From Stenotrophomonas sp. 364 (lineage in GTDB: Bacteria; Pseudomonadota; Gammaproteobacteria; Xanthomonadales; Xanthomonadaceae), in contig NZ_CP047135.1 of NCBI RefSeq assembly GCF_009832905.1, positions 1,466,001-1,530,000 of the forward strand: DNA of 64,000 nucleotides. The letters are read 5' to 3'. Position 1 is the first letter of the stretch. Every line of letters begins with the position of its first letter. Both the position numbers and the translations under genes were made by a program. Shown piece after piece: positions 2,304-11,302 of this stretch. The notes under the pieces are model-generated. The model made no database searches. It saw nothing but the letters and a program-made list of their open reading frames with translations, and was not told where the DNA came from.

Positions 2304-3326
2304 TCAGGTCGCGGTGACCGTCTCCAGGATCCGCTTGCCAGTGGCCTGCAACTCCTCTTCGGCCTGCGCGCTCTGCTGTTTGGCGAACTTGGCGTTCGGG
2401 CACTGCGCCAGCATGTAGTTGGCGTCGAAGTCGAGCTTGGCCACCAGGAAGTCGACGAACGCCCGCACCTTCGGCGAGACCAGCCGGCCGCCGGCGAACA
2501 CCGCGTTGAAGTCCACTTCCGGGCCGGTCCAGCCGGCCAGCACGCGGCGCACCATGCCCGATTCGACGAACGGCTTGGCCATCACGTCACCGGTGAGCAG
2601 CAAGCCTTCGCCACAGACCAGCGCGCCATTGAGCGCGGACGGATCGTTGGCCACAAGCAGTGGATTGACCGGGAAGTCGCGCAGGTCGCCCCCGTTTTCG
2701 CCCAGCTGCCAGAAGAACCGGTTGTTGTTGAGGTTGCGTGCCTTGCGCATCGCCAGGATGCGATGGAACTGCAGTTCGTCCGGGTGCAGCGGCTCGCCGT
2801 AGCGCTCGATGTAGGCCGGGCTGGCGAACACCTGGGTGCGCAGGCTGCCCAGCTTGCGCGCCACCAGGTTGGAGTCGGGCAGGGTGCCCACGCGCAACGC
2901 CAGATCGGCTTCACCTGCAATCAGGTCCAGCTTCTCGTTGCCCAGGTGCATGTCCAGCTGGATTTCCGGGTACTGCGCATGGAACTCGCCCAGCAGCGGA
3001 GCGATCCAGGTGATGCCGATGGAGTAGGGCACGGTGAAGCGTAGCCAGCCGCGCGGGCCGGACTGCAACTGGTTGACCGCACCTTCGGCTTCTTCCAGTT
3101 CGCGCGCGATGCGCTGGCAATGTTCGTGGTACACCGACCCGGCCTCGGTCAGGCCCAGCCGGCGCGTGGTCCGGTGCAGAAGGCGCGCGCCCAGGCGCGT
3201 CTCCAGTTCCTGCACCTTGCGGCTGACCGTGGTCTTGGGCAGGCCAAGCGCAGTGGCGGCGGCAATGAAGCTGCCTTGCTCGACCACCTTGACGAAGATC
3301 AGCGTGTCGTTGAGATCGTGGGCCAT
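2304..3326 (-). CDS. smeRv: LysR-type regulator SmeRv of the smeU1VWU2X efflux operon
   Basis: Transcription factor of 340 residues with the LysR plan. An N-terminal winged helix-turn-helix (about residues 5-65, including TTVSRKVQELETRLGARLL) is followed by a periplasmic-binding-like effector domain (about 90-300). It is transcribed divergently from smeU1VWU2X, the arrangement known for SmeRv in S. maltophilia, where the regulator controls this pump. The C-terminal tail after the effector domain (FAKQQSAQAEEELQATGKR) is longer than in many LysR proteins. The intergenic space to the operon carries T-N11-A type dyads (see 3387-3436). The identification rests on domain and gene order. The inducer is not visible from sequence. 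Confidence 0.88.
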   Translation of the reverse strand: MAHDLNDTLIFVKVVEQGSFIAAATALGLPKTTVSRKVQELETRLGARLLHRTTRRLGLTEAGSVYHEHCQRIARELEEAEGAVNQLQSGPRGWLRFTVPYSIGITWIAPLLGEFHAQYPEIQLDMHLGNEKLDLIAGEADLALRVGTLPDSNLVARKLGSLRTQVFASPAYIERYGEPLHPDELQFHRILAMRKARNLNNNRFFWQLGENGGDLRDFPVNPLLVANDPSALNGALVCGEGLLLTGDVMAKPFVESGMVRRVLAGWTGPEVDFNAVFAGGRLVSPKVRAFVDFLVAKLDFDANYMLAQCPNAKFAKQQSAQAEEELQATGKRILETVTAT

Positions 3327-3468: not shown

Positions 3469-3696
3469 ATGTGGTTGCGGAACATTCTTGGCCGCGTACT
3501 GACCGGCCGCACAGCCCCGCTGGACTTGGCGATGACCGTTGAGAAACGGCCCTCGTCGTTGTCCTACAAGGCTTTCCGAGAGTTCACCCCGCCCGCCAAG
3601 ATGCAGCGCGGCGGCAGCCTGCGCCTGGGCAATCGTGATCTGGGCCGACTGGGCCGGATTGGGATTATCCCGGCGGCGGGAGTGAAAGTCCCATGA
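3469..3696 (+). CDS. Possible 75-residue leader ORF coupled to smeU1
   Basis: Small frame starting MWLRNILGRVLTGRTAPLDL, preceded by AAGGA with good spacing. Its TGA overlaps the smeU1 ATG as ATGA. I do not recognise a family. It is basic, has no signal peptide and has no convincing membrane segment. It may be a genuine small gene, a leader ORF that couples translation into smeU1, or simply the smeU1 5' untranslated region. The ribosome-binding site and the exact stop/start overlap are the only support. Confidence 0.35.
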   Translation: MWLRNILGRVLTGRTAPLDLAMTVEKRPSSLSYKAFREFTPPAKMQRGGSLRLGNRDLGRLGRIGIIPAAGVKVP

Positions 3697-4466
3697 GTGG
3701 GACGCTGGCCCCCGAGGTCCTTGTCCTGGGCGGCACCGGTAGTGTCGGCCAGGGCATCGTGGCTGCGCTTCTGGAGGCCGGCAGCCCGGTCCTGGTGGTC
3801 GGTCGCGACCCCGGTCGGCTGGCGGCCCTGCAGGAACAGTTCGCCGATGAGCCCGGTCTGGAGACGCTGCTGGGCTCCTTCGGCGACGACGCCTCGGCGC
3901 AGACGGTGGCCGAGCGCATCGCGCCACGCCGGCGCCCGTTGTCGGCGGTGGTCGATGCGATGGGCGGCCCGTACCACCGCGGTCGGGTGACCGATCGCAG
4001 TGGCGACGCGCTGCTGCAGGCGCTGCAGGCCGACGTGATGCCGCACGTGCATGCCGGCCGCCACCTGTTGCCGCTGCTGCGCGGTGGCAGCCATCCACGC
4101 CGCTACGTGTTGATCGGCGGCCCAGCCGGCTTCAAGCCGTGGGCCGGGCACGGCGAATCCTCCATCACCATGTCCACCACGCGCATGTACGCGCAGGTGC
4201 TGCACCAGGAAGCGCAGGCGCTGGGCGTACGCGCGCAGATGCTGGAAGTGTGCAACCCGGTCTGCACTCCGGCCAATGCGGCCAACGCCTGCATCGAATG
4301 GCCCAGCGCATTGCTGGTGGGTCGCCGCCTGGTCTCGCTGCTGGACACCTGTACCGACAACCGCGCCATCGTCCGATGTGACGCGCGCGATGGCGAACTG
4401 CCGCGCGGCCTGCTGCACAGGGATTGGCCTCCCCCGATGTCGCGCGACACCGCTGGCGCTGCTTGA
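3693..4466 (+). CDS. smeU1: SmeU1, SDR-like Rossmann protein of the efflux operon
   Basis: Protein of 257 residues with a short-chain dehydrogenase/reductase N-terminus (GGTGSVGQG at 13-21, then VLVVGRDPGRL). The usual catalytic YxxxK is not present: the aligned area reads STTRMYAQVLHQE, where Tyr is not followed by Lys at +4. It may therefore be an atypical or inactive SDR, perhaps a nucleotide-binding accessory. It is the first gene of the smeU1VWU2X operon. The preferred start at 3693 follows GGGAG and overlaps the stop of a small upstream frame. The known S. maltophilia operon also begins with an SDR gene named smeU1. Its biochemical role is unknown to me. Confidence 0.8.
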   Translation: MSGTLAPEVLVLGGTGSVGQGIVAALLEAGSPVLVVGRDPGRLAALQEQFADEPGLETLLGSFGDDASAQTVAERIAPRRRPLSAVVDAMGGPYHRGRVTDRSGDALLQALQADVMPHVHAGRHLLPLLRGGSHPRRYVLIGGPAGFKPWAGHGESSITMSTTRMYAQVLHQEAQALGVRAQMLEVCNPVCTPANAANACIEWPSALLVGRRLVSLLDTCTDNRAIVRCDARDGELPRGLLHRDWPPPMSRDTAGAA

Positions 4467-4493
4467 CCTCTACCAAGGTTGAGGTCGCAGGAT
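4463..4493 (+). promoter_or_regulatory. SoxR-type operator/promoter between smeU1 and smeV
   Basis: The 18-base dyad CCTCTACCAAGGTTGAGG (4467-4484) differs from the SoxR pattern CCTCAA-N6-TTGAGG at one position. It sits inside a promoter with -35 TTGACC (4463-4468) and -10-like CAGGAT (4488-4493), separated by 19 bp, the overlong spacer typical of MerR-family activators such as SoxR. The -35 overlaps the smeU1 stop codon. Transcription would start near 4500, upstream of the smeV start chosen here at 4558. The -10 is weak, as is usual for such promoters. Confidence 0.6.
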
Positions 4494-4557
4494 GCGCCAC
4501 CCACGTTCTGCACTACCCCCGATTTTCGAATACCACCCCTCCGTACGGATGCATGTC

Positions 4558-5778
4558 ATGACCTCCCTTACCTCCACTCCGCATCGTCTTACCCGACGGC
4601 TGGCCATGGCCGGCGTCTCGATCCTCGCCGCCGCCGTGCTGGCTGCCTGCAGCGGTGGCCACGCAGAAGAAGCCGGCATGCCGCCGCCGCCGCAGGTGAG
4701 CGCCGCGCCGGTGCTGATCAAGCCCGTCAGCCAGTGGGACGACTTCAGTGGCCGCGTTGAAGCGGTGCAGAGCGTCGAGCTGCGCCCGCGCGTGTCCGGC
4801 TACATCGACAAGGTCAACTACGTCGAAGGCGAGGAAGTGAAGAAGGGCGACGTGCTGTTCACCATCGACGCCCGCAGCTACCAGGCCGAGTACGACCGCG
4901 CCCGTGCCGAACTGGCGCGCGCCCGCACCCAGGCCACCCTGGCCCGCAGCGAATCCGAGCGCGCCAAGAAGCTGTCCGACCAGCAGGCGATCTCCACCGA
5001 GACCTGGGAGCAGCGGCGTGCCGCGGCCGACCAGGCCGGTGCCAGCGTGCAGGCCGCGCAGGCCGCGCTGGATGCCGCCGCGTTGAACCTGGAGTTCACC
5101 AAGGTGCGTGCCCCGATCAACGGCCGCGCCGGCCGCGCGATGGTGACTGCCGGCAACCTGGTCACCGCCGGCGACAGCGCCAGCGTGCTGACCACGCTGG
5201 TGTCGCTGGACACGGTGTTCGTGTACTTCGATGCCGACGAAGCCACCTTCCTGCGGTACGCACAGATGGCACGCAAGGGCGAGCGCCCGAGCGAGCGTGA
5301 CAGCGACCTGCCGGTGAAGGTGGGCCTGTCGGGCGAGGACGGCTTCCCGCACGAAGGCAAGGTCGACTTCCTCGACAACCAGGTCACCCGCAGCACCGGC
5401 ACCATCCGCGTCCGTGCGCTGCTGGACAACGCCGACCGCACCTTCACCCCGGGCCTGTTCGCCCGCGTGCAGCTGCTCGGCAGCGGCCAGTTCCAGGCCA
5501 TGCTGATCGACGAGAAGGCCGTGCTGACCGACCAGGACCGCAAGTATGTGTACGTGGTCGACAAGGACGGCAAGGCACAGCGCCAGGACATCACGCTGGG
5601 CCGCAATGCCGACGGCCTGCGCATCGTGCAGCAGGGTCTGAAGGCCGGCGACCGGGTGATCATCGACGGCGTGCAGAAGGTCTTCATGCCCGGCATGCCG
5701 GTGCAGGCCAAGGCCGTTGCCATGCAGCCGGTTGCCGCACCGGCTGCGCCTGCGACGGCACCCGTTGCATTGAATTAA
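4558..5778 (+). CDS. smeV: SmeV, membrane fusion lipoprotein of the RND pump
   Basis: Periplasmic adaptor linking the inner-membrane pump SmeW to the outer-membrane channel SmeX. From the ATG at 4558 it is 406 residues, with a lipoprotein signal peptide and lipobox LAAC (Cys31). The rest shows the HlyD/AcrA plan: barrel-sandwich halves (ELRPRVSGYIDKVNYVEGEEVKKG, later NGRAGRAMVTAGNLVTAGD) flanking an alpha-helical hairpin rich in Ala, Arg and Glu, then a beta-barrel and a membrane-proximal domain. In-frame ATGs at 4549 and 4492 exist. Starting at 4492 would add 22 residues before a signal peptide that already looks complete, and would place the start inside the predicted -10 of the internal promoter, so 4558 is preferred. 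Confidence 0.9.
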   Translation: MTSLTSTPHRLTRRLAMAGVSILAAAVLAACSGGHAEEAGMPPPPQVSAAPVLIKPVSQWDDFSGRVEAVQSVELRPRVSGYIDKVNYVEGEEVKKGDVLFTIDARSYQAEYDRARAELARARTQATLARSESERAKKLSDQQAISTETWEQRRAAADQAGASVQAAQAALDAAALNLEFTKVRAPINGRAGRAMVTAGNLVTAGDSASVLTTLVSLDTVFVYFDADEATFLRYAQMARKGERPSERDSDLPVKVGLSGEDGFPHEGKVDFLDNQVTRSTGTIRVRALLDNADRTFTPGLFARVQLLGSGQFQAMLIDEKAVLTDQDRKYVYVVDKDGKAQRQDITLGRNADGLRIVQQGLKAGDRVIIDGVQKVFMPGMPVQAKAVAMQPVAAPAAPATAPVALN

Positions 5779-5782
5779 AGGC

Positions 5783-5805
5783 AGCCGACTGACAGTCGGC
5801 TCTAC
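5783..5805. repeat. SMAG-type palindrome (CTAC end)
   Basis: AGCCGACT and its complement around GAC, followed by CTAC (GTAG on the minus strand). This matches the short GTAG-terminated palindromes (SMAG, a REP family) of S. maltophilia. It lies between smeV and smeW, five bases after the smeV stop. Confidence 0.7.
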
Positions 5806-5811
5806 CGTCAT

Positions 5812-5840
5812 GTAGCAGCCGACCCCACCGTCGGCTCTAC
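5812..5840. repeat. SMAG-type palindrome with GTAG and CTAC at its two ends
   Basis: GTAG (5812-5815), then AGCCGAC (5817-5823), a 6-base loop, GTCGGCT and CTAC (5837-5840). It pairs with the preceding element, so a double hairpin can form in the smeV-smeW intercistronic RNA. Confidence 0.65.
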
Positions 5841-5876
5841 CGTGTCTGCCATCGCCCCGTGCAGGGGAGCCCGCCA

Positions 5877-5944: not shown

Positions 5945-8900
5945 ATGGACTTTTCCCGTTTCTTCATCGACAGGCCGATTTTCGCGGCGGTGTTGTCGAT
6001 CGTGATCTTCGCCGCCGGCCTGATCTCCATTCCGATGCTGCCCATTGGCGAGTACCCGGAAGTGGTGCCGCCGTCGGTGGTGGTGCGTACCGTGTACCCG
6101 GGTGCCAACCCGAAGGTGATCGCCGAAACCGTGGCCACCCCGCTGGAAGAGGCCATCAACGGCGTCGAAGGCATGATCTACCTCAAGTCGGTGGCCGGCT
6201 CCGACGGCGTGCTGCAGATGACCATCACCTTCCGCCCGGGTACCGATCCGGACGAGGCCGCGGTGAAGGTGCAGAACCGCGTCGCCCAGGCCCAGGCGCG
6301 CCTGCCCGAGGACGTCCGCCGCCAGGGCGTGACCACCCAGAAGCAGTCGCCCACCTTCCTGATGGTGGTGCACCTGACCTCGCCCAAGGGCAAGTACGAC
6401 ACCCTGTACCTGCGCAACTACGCCCGCCTGCACGTCAAGGACGCGCTGGCACGTATCCAGGGCGTGGGCGATGCACAGATCTTCGGCGGCGGCGACTACG
6501 CCATGCGCGCCTGGCTGGACCCGGACAAGGTGGCCGCGCGCGGCCTGACCGCCAGCGACGTGGTCGGTGCCATGCGCGAGCAGAACGTGCAGGTCTCGGC
6601 CGGCCAGCTCGGTGCCGAGCCGATGCCCAACAGCCAGTTCCTGACGCTGATCAATGCCCAGGGCCGCCTGCGCAGCGAAAAGGAGTTCGGCGACATCGTG
6701 CTCAAGAGCGGTACCGACGGTGAAGTGGTGCGGTTGTCGGACGTGGCCCGGGTGGAACTGGGCGCTGGCGACTACACCCTGCGCTCGCAGCTGGACGGCA
6801 AGAACGCGGTCGGCATCGGTATCTTCCAGGCCCCCGGCGCCAACGCGCTGGAGATCCGCGATGCGGTGATGGCCAGCATGGACGAAATGCAGAAGACCAT
6901 GCCCGCCGATGTGAAGTACGAAGCGGTGTATGACACCACCATCTTCGTGCGCGACTCGATCAAGGCGGTGGTCTCCACGCTGCTGGAAGCGATCGCGCTG
7001 GTGGTGCTGGTGGTGATCCTGTTCCTGCAGACCTGGCGCGCCTCGATCATTCCGTTGATCGCCGTGCCGGTGTCCATCGTGGGCACGTTCGGTGCGCTGT
7101 ACCTGCTGGGCTTCTCGATCAATACGCTGAGCCTGTTCGGCCTGGTGCTGGCCATCGGCATCGTGGTCGATGACGCGATCGTGGTGGTGGAAAACGTTGA
7201 GCGCAACATCGAAGAAGGCCTGACTCCGCTGGCCGCTGCGCATCAGGCGATGCGCGAAGTGTCCGGCCCGATCATCGCCATCGCGCTGGTGCTGTGTGCC
7301 GTGTTCGTGCCGATGGCGTTCCTGTCGGGCGTCACCGGCCAGTTCTACAAGCAGTTCGCGGTCACCATCGCCATCTCCACGGTGATCTCGGCGATCAACT
7401 CGCTGACCCTGTCGCCGGCCCTGGCCGCCCGCCTGCTCAAGCCGCACGGCGCGCCGAAGGATGCCCCGACCCGCATCATCGACCGTCTGTTCGGCTGGGT
7501 GTTCCGTCCGTTCAACCGCTTCTTCAAGTCCAGCTCGGAAAAGTACGAGCGCGGCGTGTCGAAGATCCTCGGTCGCCGCGGTGCAGTGTTCGTGGTGTAT
7601 GCGGTGCTGCTGGTGGGCACCGGTTTCATCTTCAAGCTGGTCCCGCCGGGCTTCATCCCGACCCAGGACAAGCTGTACCTGATCGCCGGTGTGAAGCTGC
7701 CGGAAGGCTCGTCGATCGCGCGTACCGATGAAATGCTGCGCAAGGTGGCCAAGATCGCCCAGGAAACCGATGGCGTGGCCCACACCATCTCGTTCCCCGG
7801 CCTCAACGCGCTGCAGTTCACCAATACGCCCAACACCGGCGTGGCGTTCATTCCGCTCAAGCCGTTCAACGAGCGTCATGGCCGCACCGCTGCGCAGATC
7901 AATGCCGAGATCAACCAGAAGATCGCCGGGCTGCAGGAAGGCTTTGCCTTCGCGATGATGCCGCCGCCGATCCTGGGCCTGGGTAACGGCAACGGCTACC
8001 AGATGTTCATCCAGGACCGGGGCAACCTCGGCTACGGCGCGCTGCAGAACGCGGTGCAGTCGATGCAGGGCGCGGTCGCGCAGACGCCGGGCATGGCGTT
8101 CCCGATCACCAGCTACCAGGCCAACGTGCCGCAGCTGGATGCCGAAGTGGACCGGGTCAAGGCCAAGGCGCAGGGCGTGCAGCTCACCGAGCTGTTCGAC
8201 ACCCTGCAGACCTACCTGGGCTCGTCGTACGTCAACGACTTCAACCAGTTCGGGCGTACCTGGCAGGTCATCGCCCAGGCCGACGGGCAGTTCCGTGACA
8301 GCGTCGAGGACATCGGCAAGCTGCGTACCCGCAACGACCGTGGCGAGATGGTGCCGATCGGCTCGATGGTCACCGTCAAGGAAACCTTCGGCCCGGACCC
8401 GGTACTGCGCTTCAATGGCTACCCGGCCGCCGACCTGGCCGGTGAAGCCGATCCGCGCATGCTGTCGTCGGCTGAAGCGATGACCAACCTCACCGCCATC
8501 GCTGCCAAGGTGCTGCCGGTCGGTATGGCCACCGAATGGACCGACCTGAGCTACCAGCAGGCCACCCAGGGCAAGGCCGCCTTCATCGTGTTCCCGGTGG
8601 CCATCCTGCTGGCGTTCCTGGTGCTGGCTGCGCTGTATGAAAGCTGGTCGCTGCCGCTGGCGGTGATCCTGATCGTGCCGATGACCCTGCTGTCGGCGTT
8701 GTTCGGCGTGTGGATGACCGGTGGCGACAACAACGTGTTCGTGCAGGTCGGCCTGGTGGTGCTGATGGGCCTGGCGTGCAAGAACGCGATCCTGATCGTC
8801 GAGTTCGCCCGGGAGCTGGAGATGGGCGGCAAGGGCATCGTCGAGGCCGCGCTGGAAGCCTGCCGCCTGCGTCTGCGCCCGATCGTGATGACCTCCATCG

Positions 8901-9115
8901 CCTTCATTGCCGGCACCATCCCGCTGGTGCTCTCGCACGGCGCTGGCGCCGAGGTGCGCTCTGTCACCGGCATCACGGTGTTCGCCGGCATGCTGGGCGT
9001 GACCTTGTTCGGCCTGTTCCTGACCCCGGTGTTCTACGTGGCCCTGCGCAAGTTCGTCAGCCGTAACGGCGGCGGGCAGCTGGTGACCCACGGCGAACCC
9101 ACCATCCACCATTGA
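5945..9115 (+). CDS. smeW: SmeW, RND-type multidrug efflux permease
   Basis: Inner-membrane proton-driven pump of 1056 residues, the usual HAE-1 RND length. It starts MDFSRFFIDRPIFAAVLSI, typical of AcrB/MexB homologues. The proton-relay residues are present: paired Asp in VVDDAIVVVENVER (TM4) and Lys in LACKNAILIVEFARE (TM10). Two large periplasmic loops lie between TM1-2 and TM7-8. With SmeV and SmeX it forms a tripartite pump. In S. maltophilia, overexpression of this system is known to raise resistance to chloramphenicol, quinolones and tetracyclines. A 166-base gap with SMAG hairpins separates it from smeV. Confidence 0.96.
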   Translation: MDFSRFFIDRPIFAAVLSIVIFAAGLISIPMLPIGEYPEVVPPSVVVRTVYPGANPKVIAETVATPLEEAINGVEGMIYLKSVAGSDGVLQMTITFRPGTDPDEAAVKVQNRVAQAQARLPEDVRRQGVTTQKQSPTFLMVVHLTSPKGKYDTLYLRNYARLHVKDALARIQGVGDAQIFGGGDYAMRAWLDPDKVAARGLTASDVVGAMREQNVQVSAGQLGAEPMPNSQFLTLINAQGRLRSEKEFGDIVLKSGTDGEVVRLSDVARVELGAGDYTLRSQLDGKNAVGIGIFQAPGANALEIRDAVMASMDEMQKTMPADVKYEAVYDTTIFVRDSIKAVVSTLLEAIALVVLVVILFLQTWRASIIPLIAVPVSIVGTFGALYLLGFSINTLSLFGLVLAIGIVVDDAIVVVENVERNIEEGLTPLAAAHQAMREVSGPIIAIALVLCAVFVPMAFLSGVTGQFYKQFAVTIAISTVISAINSLTLSPALAARLLKPHGAPKDAPTRIIDRLFGWVFRPFNRFFKSSSEKYERGVSKILGRRGAVFVVYAVLLVGTGFIFKLVPPGFIPTQDKLYLIAGVKLPEGSSIARTDEMLRKVAKIAQETDGVAHTISFPGLNALQFTNTPNTGVAFIPLKPFNERHGRTAAQINAEINQKIAGLQEGFAFAMMPPPILGLGNGNGYQMFIQDRGNLGYGALQNAVQSMQGAVAQTPGMAFPITSYQANVPQLDAEVDRVKAKAQGVQLTELFDTLQTYLGSSYVNDFNQFGRTWQVIAQADGQFRDSVEDIGKLRTRNDRGEMVPIGSMVTVKETFGPDPVLRFNGYPAADLAGEADPRMLSSAEAMTNLTAIAAKVLPVGMATEWTDLSYQQATQGKAAFIVFPVAILLAFLVLAALYESWSLPLAVILIVPMTLLSALFGVWMTGGDNNVFVQVGLVVLMGLACKNAILIVEFARELEMGGKGIVEAALEACRLRLRPIVMTSIAFIAGTIPLVLSHGAGAEVRSVTGITVFAGMLGVTLFGLFLTPVFYVALRKFVSRNGGGQLVTHGEPTIHH

Positions 9116-9140: not shown

Positions 9141-9878
9141 ATGAATACCGCTACCCAAACGATCGCCCTGGTCACCGGTGCCACCCGCGGCATCGGCCTG
9201 GAAACCGTCCGCCAGCTGGCCCAGGCCGGCGTGCATACGCTGCTGGCCGGGCGCAAGCGCGACGTCGCCGTGGCCGAGGCGCTGAAGCTGCAGGCCGAAG
9301 GCCTGCCGGTCGAGGCGATCCAGCTGGACGTGGGTGATGCCGCCAGCATCGCCGCCGCGGTGCAGACCGTGACCGAACGTCACGGTCGCCTGGACATCCT
9401 GGTCAACAACGCCGGCATCCTGCTTGATGACATCAAGCTGGCCCCGTCGGCGCAGACCCTGCAGACCTGGCGCGATACCTTCGACACCAACGTGTTCGCG
9501 GTGATCGCCGTGACCCAGGCGTTCCTGCCGCTGATCACCGCCTCGCCGGCGGGTCGTATCGTCAACGTGTCCAGCATCCTGGGCTCGCTGACCCTGCACA
9601 GCCAGCCGGGTTCGCCGATCTATGGCTTCGCCGTGCCGGCCTACAACGCCTCCAAGAGCGCGGTGAACGCCTGGACCGTGCAGCTGGCCTACGAGCTGCG
9701 CGACGGCACCACCAAGGTCAACACCGTGCACCCCGGCTACGTCAAAACCGACATGAACGGTGGCGAAGGCGAGATCGAGATCAGCGAAGGCGCGCGCTCC
9801 AGCGTGGGCATGGCGCTGATCGGCGCCGACGGCCCGAACGGCAGCTTCACCTACCTGGGCGAGGTGCTGCCATGGTGA
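9141..9878 (+). CDS. smeU2: SmeU2, short-chain dehydrogenase/reductase
   Basis: Classical SDR of 245 residues with intact signature motifs: TGATRGIG nucleotide-binding loop (12-19), NNAG (89-92), catalytic Ser in VNVSS (141-145) and YNASK (Tyr168, Lys172). Unlike SmeU1 it should be catalytically competent, probably with NADP given the Arg after the glycine loop and the later AGRKR. The substrate is unknown. The gene lies between the pump and outer-membrane genes and overlaps smeX by seven bases, so the two are translationally coupled. An SDR inside an RND operon suggests a role in detoxifying or reducing pump substrates such as quinones. That last step is inference. Confidence 0.9.
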   Translation: MNTATQTIALVTGATRGIGLETVRQLAQAGVHTLLAGRKRDVAVAEALKLQAEGLPVEAIQLDVGDAASIAAAVQTVTERHGRLDILVNNAGILLDDIKLAPSAQTLQTWRDTFDTNVFAVIAVTQAFLPLITASPAGRIVNVSSILGSLTLHSQPGSPIYGFAVPAYNASKSAVNAWTVQLAYELRDGTTKVNTVHPGYVKTDMNGGEGEIEISEGARSSVGMALIGADGPNGSFTYLGEVLPW

Positions 9879-11302
9879 TCCGCCTGTTGACCGTGGCCGT
9901 GACCAGCGCGCTGCTGGCCGGCTGCGTCAGCGTCGGCCCCAACTACCAGGCGCCACCGGCTACGCCGGTGACCCTGCAGGGCGCCGCCGCGCCGGTGTTC
10001 ACCTCCGCCTCGCCGGTGGCCAGCTGGTGGGCGCAGTTCGATGACCCGGTGCTGGAACAGCTGGTGCACGACGCACTGGGCACCAACCTGGACCTGCGCA
10101 TTGCGATGGCCCGCGTGCGTGAAGCGCGCGCGGTGTTCGTTGAACAGCGCCTGGACCAGCTGCCGCACGTCACCGCCGGCGGCAGCTACGACCGCCGCAA
10201 GCAGCCCGATGCCACCGTGGGCGGCGAGCGTGTCTTCAGCGAAACCTACCAGCTCGGCTTCGACGCCGGCTGGGAGCTGGACCTGTTCGGTCGGCAGCGC
10301 CGTGCCGCCGAAGCGGCGCGCGCGGACCTGGGGGCCGAGCAGGACAACCTGGCCGATGCCCAGGTCACCGTGGCCGCCGAAGTGGCGCGCAACTACTTCG
10401 AACTGCGTGGCTCGCAGAAGCGCATCGACGTGGCCAAGCGCACCCTGGTCAACCTGCGCGATACCCAGCGCCTGACCGAGGCACGCTGGGAACTGGGTGC
10501 CGGCAGTGAGCTGGACGTGCAGAGCAGCCGCGCACGCCTGAAGGCGATCGAGGCCGATATCCCGCTGCTGGAAGTGGCCGAAGTGCAGTCGCGGCACCGC
10601 CTGGCGGTATTGCTGGCTCAGCGTCCGGATGCGCTGGACGCACTGCTGCAGCCGCGCGAAGTGCCGGCCTACGCCAAGCAGCTGCCGCTGGGTGACACCA
10701 CCGACCTGCTGCGCCAGCGTGCCGACGTGCGCAGTGCCGAACGCCGCCTGGCCGCCGCCACTGCCCGCGTGGGCGTGGCCACGGCCGACCTGTTCCCGCG
10801 GATCAGCCTGACCGGCTTCGTCGGCTTCCTGTCCGGCGATGCCAGCGGCCTGGTCAACGGTGCCAACAAGGCGTGGTCGGTGACCCCGTCGATCAGCTGG
10901 GCCGCGTTCGATTTCGGCACCGTGCGGGCGCGCCTGCGTGCCAGCAAGGCGCAGGCCGACGGCGTGGCGGCCGAGTATGAGAAGACGGTGCTGCTGGCGC
11001 TGGAAGACACCGAGAACGCGCTGACCCGGTATGCCAAGCAGCAGTCGCGGCTGGGCATCGTCGCCGAGCAGGCGCAGGCCGCACGGCGTGCCGAGCAGCT
11101 GGCGCAGATCCGCTACCGCGAAGGCTCGGAAGACTTCCTGACCCTGCTGGATGCGCAACGCACCCAGCTGGCGGCGGATGACGCATTGGCGGCGGCCGAA
11201 TCCACGGTCAACGTCAGCGTGGTGGGGGTATACAAGGCCCTGGGGGGCTGGGGGCAGCAGCAGGACGCAGCACCGCCGGCGGTGGCCGGCACACTGCGCT
11301 GA
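9872..11302 (+). CDS. smeX: SmeX, outer-membrane efflux lipoprotein (NodT family)
   Basis: Outer-membrane channel of 476 residues, the exit duct of the SmeVWX pump. It begins with a lipoprotein signal peptide and lipobox LAGC (Cys18), followed by the family marker VGPNYQAPP. Two OEP repeats follow (about 55-250 and 265-455), with long amphipathic helices and the pattern LGxELDVQSSRARL. It is last in smeU1VWU2X, and its ATG overlaps the end of smeU2. A GC-rich hairpin lies just downstream. Length, lipobox and order all match known NodT-type outer-membrane factors. Confidence 0.94.
   Translation: MVIRLLTVAVTSALLAGCVSVGPNYQAPPATPVTLQGAAAPVFTSASPVASWWAQFDDPVLEQLVHDALGTNLDLRIAMARVREARAVFVEQRLDQLPHVTAGGSYDRRKQPDATVGGERVFSETYQLGFDAGWELDLFGRQRRAAEAARADLGAEQDNLADAQVTVAAEVARNYFELRGSQKRIDVAKRTLVNLRDTQRLTEARWELGAGSELDVQSSRARLKAIEADIPLLEVAEVQSRHRLAVLLAQRPDALDALLQPREVPAYAKQLPLGDTTDLLRQRADVRSAERRLAAATARVGVATADLFPRISLTGFVGFLSGDASGLVNGANKAWSVTPSISWAAFDFGTVRARLRASKAQADGVAAEYEKTVLLALEDTENALTRYAKQQSRLGIVAEQAQAARRAEQLAQIRYREGSEDFLTLLDAQRTQLAADDALAAAESTVNVSVVGVYKALGGWGQQQDAAPPAVAGTLR

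Follow-up and report, generated by a model that had tools for sequence, protein, structure and literature searches.

In Stenotrophomonas maltophilia, the SmeVWX efflux pump confers fluoroquinolone and chloramphenicol resistance, and overexpression of the pump is associated with resistance to co-trimoxazole (PMC12189255). The pump is said to be MexEF-OprN-like, with a LysR-type regulator, and its operon to be induced under superoxide stress through SoxR (PMC12189255). In the published wiring, SmeRv and AzoR control the operon directly, and oxidized SoxR up-regulates smeRv (PMC11356428). Changes in soxR have been reported to be selected by ciprofloxacin (PMC11047544). Reported SoxR targets in S. 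maltophilia are mfsA and sodA1 (PMC4411124, PMC6479884). The mfsA promoter consists of TTGACC, 19 bp and CATGCT, lies between divergent genes and heads its own unit, and has been characterized by gel shift, which demonstrated SoxR binding, and by primer extension (PMC4411124). For sodA1, induction requires SoxR, and binding of SoxR to its box was inferred (PMC6479884). In Pseudomonas aeruginosa, mexGHI-opmD, likewise an RND pump operon, is activated by SoxR with redox-active compounds (PMC7927275, PMC11047544), and MexT, which regulates mexEF-oprN, is redox-responsive (PMC7927275). The mexGHI-opmD pump is a different RND pump from SmeVWX. Its SoxR promoter heads the operon, and we know of no SoxR box at P. 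aeruginosa mexEF-oprN.

The window (the whole stretch of 64,000 nucleotides analysed here) carries genes in the order smeRv, smeU1-V-W-U2-X described in PMC12189255, and the published smeVWX forward primer BT8139 (PMC11356428) matches positions 5091–5109 exactly. The gene names used below rest on this gene order and on the primer match, not on alignment to named reference genes.

2304..3326, minus strand: smeRv, LysR-type regulator, divergent from smeU1
3693..4466, plus strand: smeU1, short-chain dehydrogenase/reductase, named by gene order as in PMC12189255
4558..5778, plus strand: smeV, RND periplasmic adaptor (start at 4558 most likely, at 4549 possible, at 4492 unlikely)
5945..9115, plus strand: smeW, RND permease, OqxB-like by NCBIfam but under the cut-off of that model
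9141..9878, plus strand: smeU2, short-chain dehydrogenase/reductase
9872..11302, plus strand: smeX, outer-membrane efflux channel (NodT family)

Between smeU1 and smeV lies the sequence TTGACCTCTACCAAGGTTGAGGTCGCAGGAT (4463–4493), in which we distinguish the following elements.

4463..4468, plus strand: -35 hexamer TTGACC, read from the sequence and present in 33 of 33 distinct 31-mers (72 loci)
4467..4484, plus strand: candidate SoxR-type operator CCTCTACCAAGGTTGAGG, a conserved dyad close to CCTCAA-N6-TTGAGG
4488..4493, plus strand: -10 hexamer CAGGAT, 19 bp 3' of the -35 hexamer, with A2 and T6 in 72 of 72 loci
4499..4501, plus strand: predicted transcription start, placed by spacing about 6–8 bases 3' of the -10 hexamer

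The dyad has one mismatch in 12 to CCTCAA-N6-TTGAGG, whose arms are those given for the E. coli box in PMC4411124, and its symmetry extends to 4465–4486 (GACCTCTACCA/AGGTTGAGGTC, 9 of 11 pairs). The spacer in which it sits, flanked by -35 and -10 hexamers of sigma-70 type, is overlong at 19 bp. A first-pass annotation, made from the letters, had described a dyad with a single off-consensus base, TTGACC and CAGGAT exactly 19 bp apart, and a location between smeU1 and smeV; the dyad is correct to the base, both hexamer coordinates and the spacing match, and the location agrees with the gene map. The stop codon of smeU1 (TGA, 4464–4466) lies inside the -35 hexamer, a point absent from the first-pass annotation. 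A sigma-70 scan, which allowed spacers of 16–18 bp, did not call a promoter at 4463–4493, as is expected for a spacer of 19 bp.

The closest described counterpart is the mfsA-soxR promoter of S. maltophilia, which has the same TTGACC, 19-bp spacer, dyad with AAC/GTT arms and CAxxxT -10 hexamer, occurs in the same genus and likewise targets an efflux gene (PMC4411124). Unlike it, the smeV promoter is operon-internal, with its -35 hexamer on the stop codon of the preceding gene. The box that controls sodA1, a gene for superoxide dismutase, is CCTCAACCAATGTTGAGG (PMC6479884); compared with the smeV dyad, it has 2 base differences (positions 5 and 11 of 18). Because the left arm is off consensus at one base, the affinity of SoxR for the smeV site may be below that for mfsA. 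At this base, T here, 70 distinct sequences of the genus have G (36), T (18) or A (15), and in the right arm C replaces G in 14 of the 70.

We consider it highly likely that 4463–4493 is an operon-internal promoter activated by SoxR, with binding, activation and start read from what is characteristic of the SoxR/MerR class; as a SoxR-type promoter within the smeU1VWU2X operon, it is very probably functional. The basis obtained here for the promoter reading comprises the sequence, the spacing, the conservation and the link to soxR. By this mechanism, a SoxR dimer would occupy the dyad in the overlong spacer, and upon oxidation by redox-cycling compounds SoxR would distort the DNA and align the -35 and -10 hexamers, whereupon RNA polymerase would initiate near 4500 and transcribe smeV-W-U2-X, leaving a leader of about 58 nt before the smeV start at 4558. 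With SoxR reduced, the promoter would be silent. SmeRv (with AzoR, according to the literature) would control the whole operon from a promoter 5' of smeU1, and SoxR would control the pump part only. Both the promoter class and the control of the operon by SoxR were already known, and the statement in the first-pass annotation that oxidative stress induces the operon by way of SoxR is borne out in print (PMC12189255, PMC11356428). Relative to the literature passages covered, in which no SoxR box before smeV is described, the placement, its conservation and the predicted direct route are additions.

The first-pass annotation had also argued against a smeV start at 4492, and that argument holds. 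An ATG at the 4492 position is in frame and unblocked in 8 of 71 loci, and in 32 of 71 a stop codon intervenes in the smeV frame, versus 70 of 71 loci that keep the ATG corresponding to 4558 (and 66 of 71 that keep the one at 4549). A start at 4492 is thus unlikely. Just before smeV, ACCACCCCTCCGTACGG (4532–4548) follows a motif that is kept in 57 of 86 genus loci and in none of the 14 loci that lack the promoter.

Those loci come from 91 genomes of the genus, in which we located 86 smeV loci (G016, G021, G054, G079 and G085 were dropped for a weak or partial smeV match) and searched for a box defined by a consensus in which the -35 hexamer and A2 and T6 of the -10 hexamer were included, at a threshold of 18 of 23. 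All smeU1-bearing loci scored at least 20 and all other loci at most 14, so the threshold of 18 excluded none. The promoter is present at the smeU1-smeV junction in 72 of 72 loci with an adjoining smeU1 and in 0 of 14 without one; the 14 boxless loci belong to 8 genomes with soxR and 6 without it. An xAxxxT hexamer resembling a -10 element follows at a spacer of 19 in 72/72 loci and at none of the spacers 14–18 or 20–23. The first-pass annotation had proposed that its reading would fall if related genomes did not keep the dyad with its spacing of 19 bp; within the genus, every locus with an adjoining smeU1 keeps both, an outcome in favour of that reading. In the 70 distinct flanked sequences, no variation is seen in TTGACC, in most arm bases or in A2 and T6 of the -10 hexamer.

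With up to 3 mismatches allowed, the 12 bases of the dyad alone are not enriched in the window (7 matches versus 17.3 expected from shuffles), and since the matches are fewer than in shuffles, weak matches mean nothing; the sole match with 1 mismatch in the window is 4467–4484. Combining the -35 hexamer with the dyad (TTGACCTCAANNNNNNTTGAGGT, up to 3 mismatches) leaves two matches in the window, which are the 4463 site on both strands, at a shuffle mean of 0.02. In the 4.84-Mb genome, the 23-base pattern TTGACCTCNACNNNNGTTGAGGT has two exact matches, namely the smeV site and one 5' of a RidA-like gene, and 10 matches with up to 3 mismatches (some representing two strands of one site; reversed control, 2). 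The 31-base promoter pattern has 6 matches in the whole genome and 0 in the control. Among the looser matches are ones adjoining soxR, a MnSOD-like gene, an N-acetyltransferase gene (PF00797) and a MerR paralogue, and the one beside soxR points at the divergent gene, which by analogy would be mfsA.

In this genome a single soxR exceeds the TIGR01950 cut-off (222 bits versus 116.9), and the SoxR translation contains CIGCGCLSLKRC, the CIGCGC cysteine motif (Fe-S cysteines). Across the genus, a SoxR over this cut-off is encoded in 78 of 91 genomes, and the 31-base pattern (up to 3 mismatches, genome-wide) occurs in 77 of these 78 versus 2 of the 13 genomes without soxR; its reversed control has 1 match in all 91 genomes. 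The two genomes with the pattern and without soxR are G036 (85 per cent complete) and G067 (77 per cent complete), and G050 is the single genome with soxR and no match.

Outside the genus, 297 genomes were searched, of which 158 have a smeU1 hit; 40 were fetched, from the better hits and from several genera. The box was found in 12 of these 40, all in genus g17, which contributes 16 of the 40. Among these 16 g17 genomes with a smeU1 hit, soxR is present in all 12 that carry the box and in none of the 4 boxless ones (concordance 16/16), and in the 12 it lies on the same contig, about 9–12 kb from smeU1; in the two loci read, L221 and L222, the distance from the end of smeX to soxR, which faces it, is about 4.4 and 2.4 kb, respectively. 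The g17 arms vary (CCTCAAG, CCTGAAG and CTTCAGG forms), with a constant spacing and the -10 A and T in 12/12. The g17 box shares bases with the smeU1 stop in 3 of 12 loci and is 27–60 bp behind it in 9 of 12, so the stop codon does not explain the upkeep of the box.

Presence of soxR does not imply the smeV promoter. Specifically, 27 of the 40 outside genomes have soxR, and 15 of these 27 (three from g7 and three from g18 among them) carry smeU1 with no box; smeU1 and soxR without a box is the state of Xanthomonas and some other relatives. In the genus, soxR accompanies the 8 boxless loci mentioned above. In a set of named loci (the best 80 of 268, overlapping the 91 genomes), the box is found in 38, comprising 37 Stenotrophomonas-like loci and Pseudoxanthomonas composti L111. 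Among the same best 80 of 268, 28 loci have smeU1 and no box, mostly from Xanthomonas, and 14 have neither smeU1 nor box. Three of the 28 are titled Stenotrophomonas (L087, L108 and L112), and their genomes were grouped in genera g2 and g44 as G091, G165 and G133. One of the 37 box-bearing Stenotrophomonas-like loci (L054) is titled Bacillus subtilis SK7B5; it has a Stenotrophomonas-like smeRv-smeU1-smeV arrangement (smeV 95–96 per cent) and is probably a contamination or mislabelling.

We placed these loci on a SmeV tree of 49 rows, made up of 39 of the 40 outside loci (G341 was dropped, its fragment being too short) and 10 of the 72 box-bearing genus loci. On this tree the box label takes three changes overall. 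The agreement of box and soxR in g17 is clustered, so that the 16/16 do not amount to 16 independent cases and reflect few evolutionary events, and Fisher values calculated for the association are too strong. The box may have a single origin on the SmeV tree. A fuller reading, to which we assign about an even chance, holds that SoxR acts directly and in parallel to SmeRv, with smeU1 left out, and that the same junction promoter arose separately in Stenotrophomonas and in g17.

A conserved SoxR-type switch behind smeU1 would mean that redox-cycling chemicals probably induce the pump directly, and not only via the regulator of the pump. Such a direct route, if true, would explain induction by redox-cycling compounds without a step via smeRv, would change the published wiring, in which SoxR acts through smeRv, and predicts that the pump could be produced without SmeU1. 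It could also tie the ciprofloxacin-selected soxR changes (PMC11047544) to pump expression, a link that is ours.

The alternative that survives best, though we regard it as improbable, is that SoxR reaches the operon only indirectly, through raised smeRv, and that the internal dyad is decayed or idle. The indirect route is the one stated in PMC11356428. However, of the distinct 31-mers, 33 of 33 retain TTGACC, a spacing of 19 bp and A2 and T6 of the -10 hexamer, which would hardly be expected of an idle site. Furthermore, in the smeRv-smeU1 gaps of 70 loci, the best SoxR-like dyad mismatches 4 of 12 bases in 16 loci and 5 of 12 in 54; with none under 4, a SoxR box at smeRv was rejected as a candidate. 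These gaps show no site from which SoxR could act on smeRv directly, which also speaks against an exclusively indirect route. The direct and the smeRv-mediated routes could coexist.

Binding of the site by another activator of the MerR family appears very unlikely. The one MerR paralogue of the genome that was examined (G000 2085518–2085910) does adjoin a similar 19-bp promoter, but its own site has CCTCAAG/CTTGAAG arms and not the AAC/GTT arms of mfsA and sodA1, and the paralogue is found in 13 of 91 genomes (E <= 1e-35), versus the box in 72 of 86 smeV loci, and is thus too rare to be the binder. The co-occurrence of box and soxR in g17 likewise favours SoxR over a relative.

Less probable still is that the dyad acts as an RNA hairpin between smeU1 and smeV, with a role in attenuation, processing or stability. 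Folding of a 26-nt RNA from the window gives -11.7 kcal/mol (z -3.6), but compensating changes are absent: of the 33 distinct 31-mers, 10 do not form pair 8/19 and 11 do not form pair 9/18, and pairs 3/24 to 12/15 show no second Watson-Crick type. No terminator was called at the dyad, and A2 and T6 of the -10 hexamer, which belong to the promoter but not to the arms, are invariant. We therefore rejected the hairpin. Chance or coding constraint (from the end of smeU1, or from overlap with a smeV start at 4492) has a negligible claim, because, although the -35 hexamer overlaps the smeU1 stop in 72 of 72 genus loci, the dyad arms are located behind that stop, the g17 box is clear of it in 9 of 12 loci, the 4492 start is usable in 8/71 loci with a stop in between in 32/71, and the 31-mer carries a mean of 1.63 bits of information versus 1.13 for the last 60 bases of smeU1 and 0.67 for the following 30 bases.

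Several further observations concern other sites and genes. The RidA-like gene (PF01042; L002 1036–1523, minus strand) downstream of the exact match to the SoxR-promoter pattern is not named as a SoxR target in the published passages on SoxR in S. maltophilia covered here. The MnSOD-like (sodA1-like) gene has a SoxR-type 19-bp promoter (L004 835–1523, minus strand; G000 near 1459000) and precedes the window by about 7 kb and smeV by about 11 kb. The N-acetyltransferase gene (PF00797; L006 1501–2382, plus strand) comes after a SoxR-like site with a weaker right arm, and L010 is one further weak genome match, with 3 mismatches. A second SoxR-family gene is situated about 13–15 kb from smeV in three genus genomes (G025, G032 and G060), and the second SoxR-family gene in L223 (16816–17229, minus strand) has a SoxR-like promoter alongside. 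Within the operon, the smeV-smeW gap contains, at 5780–5850, a terminator-like site on the minus strand and short inverted repeats, which we take to be REP/SMAG-like.
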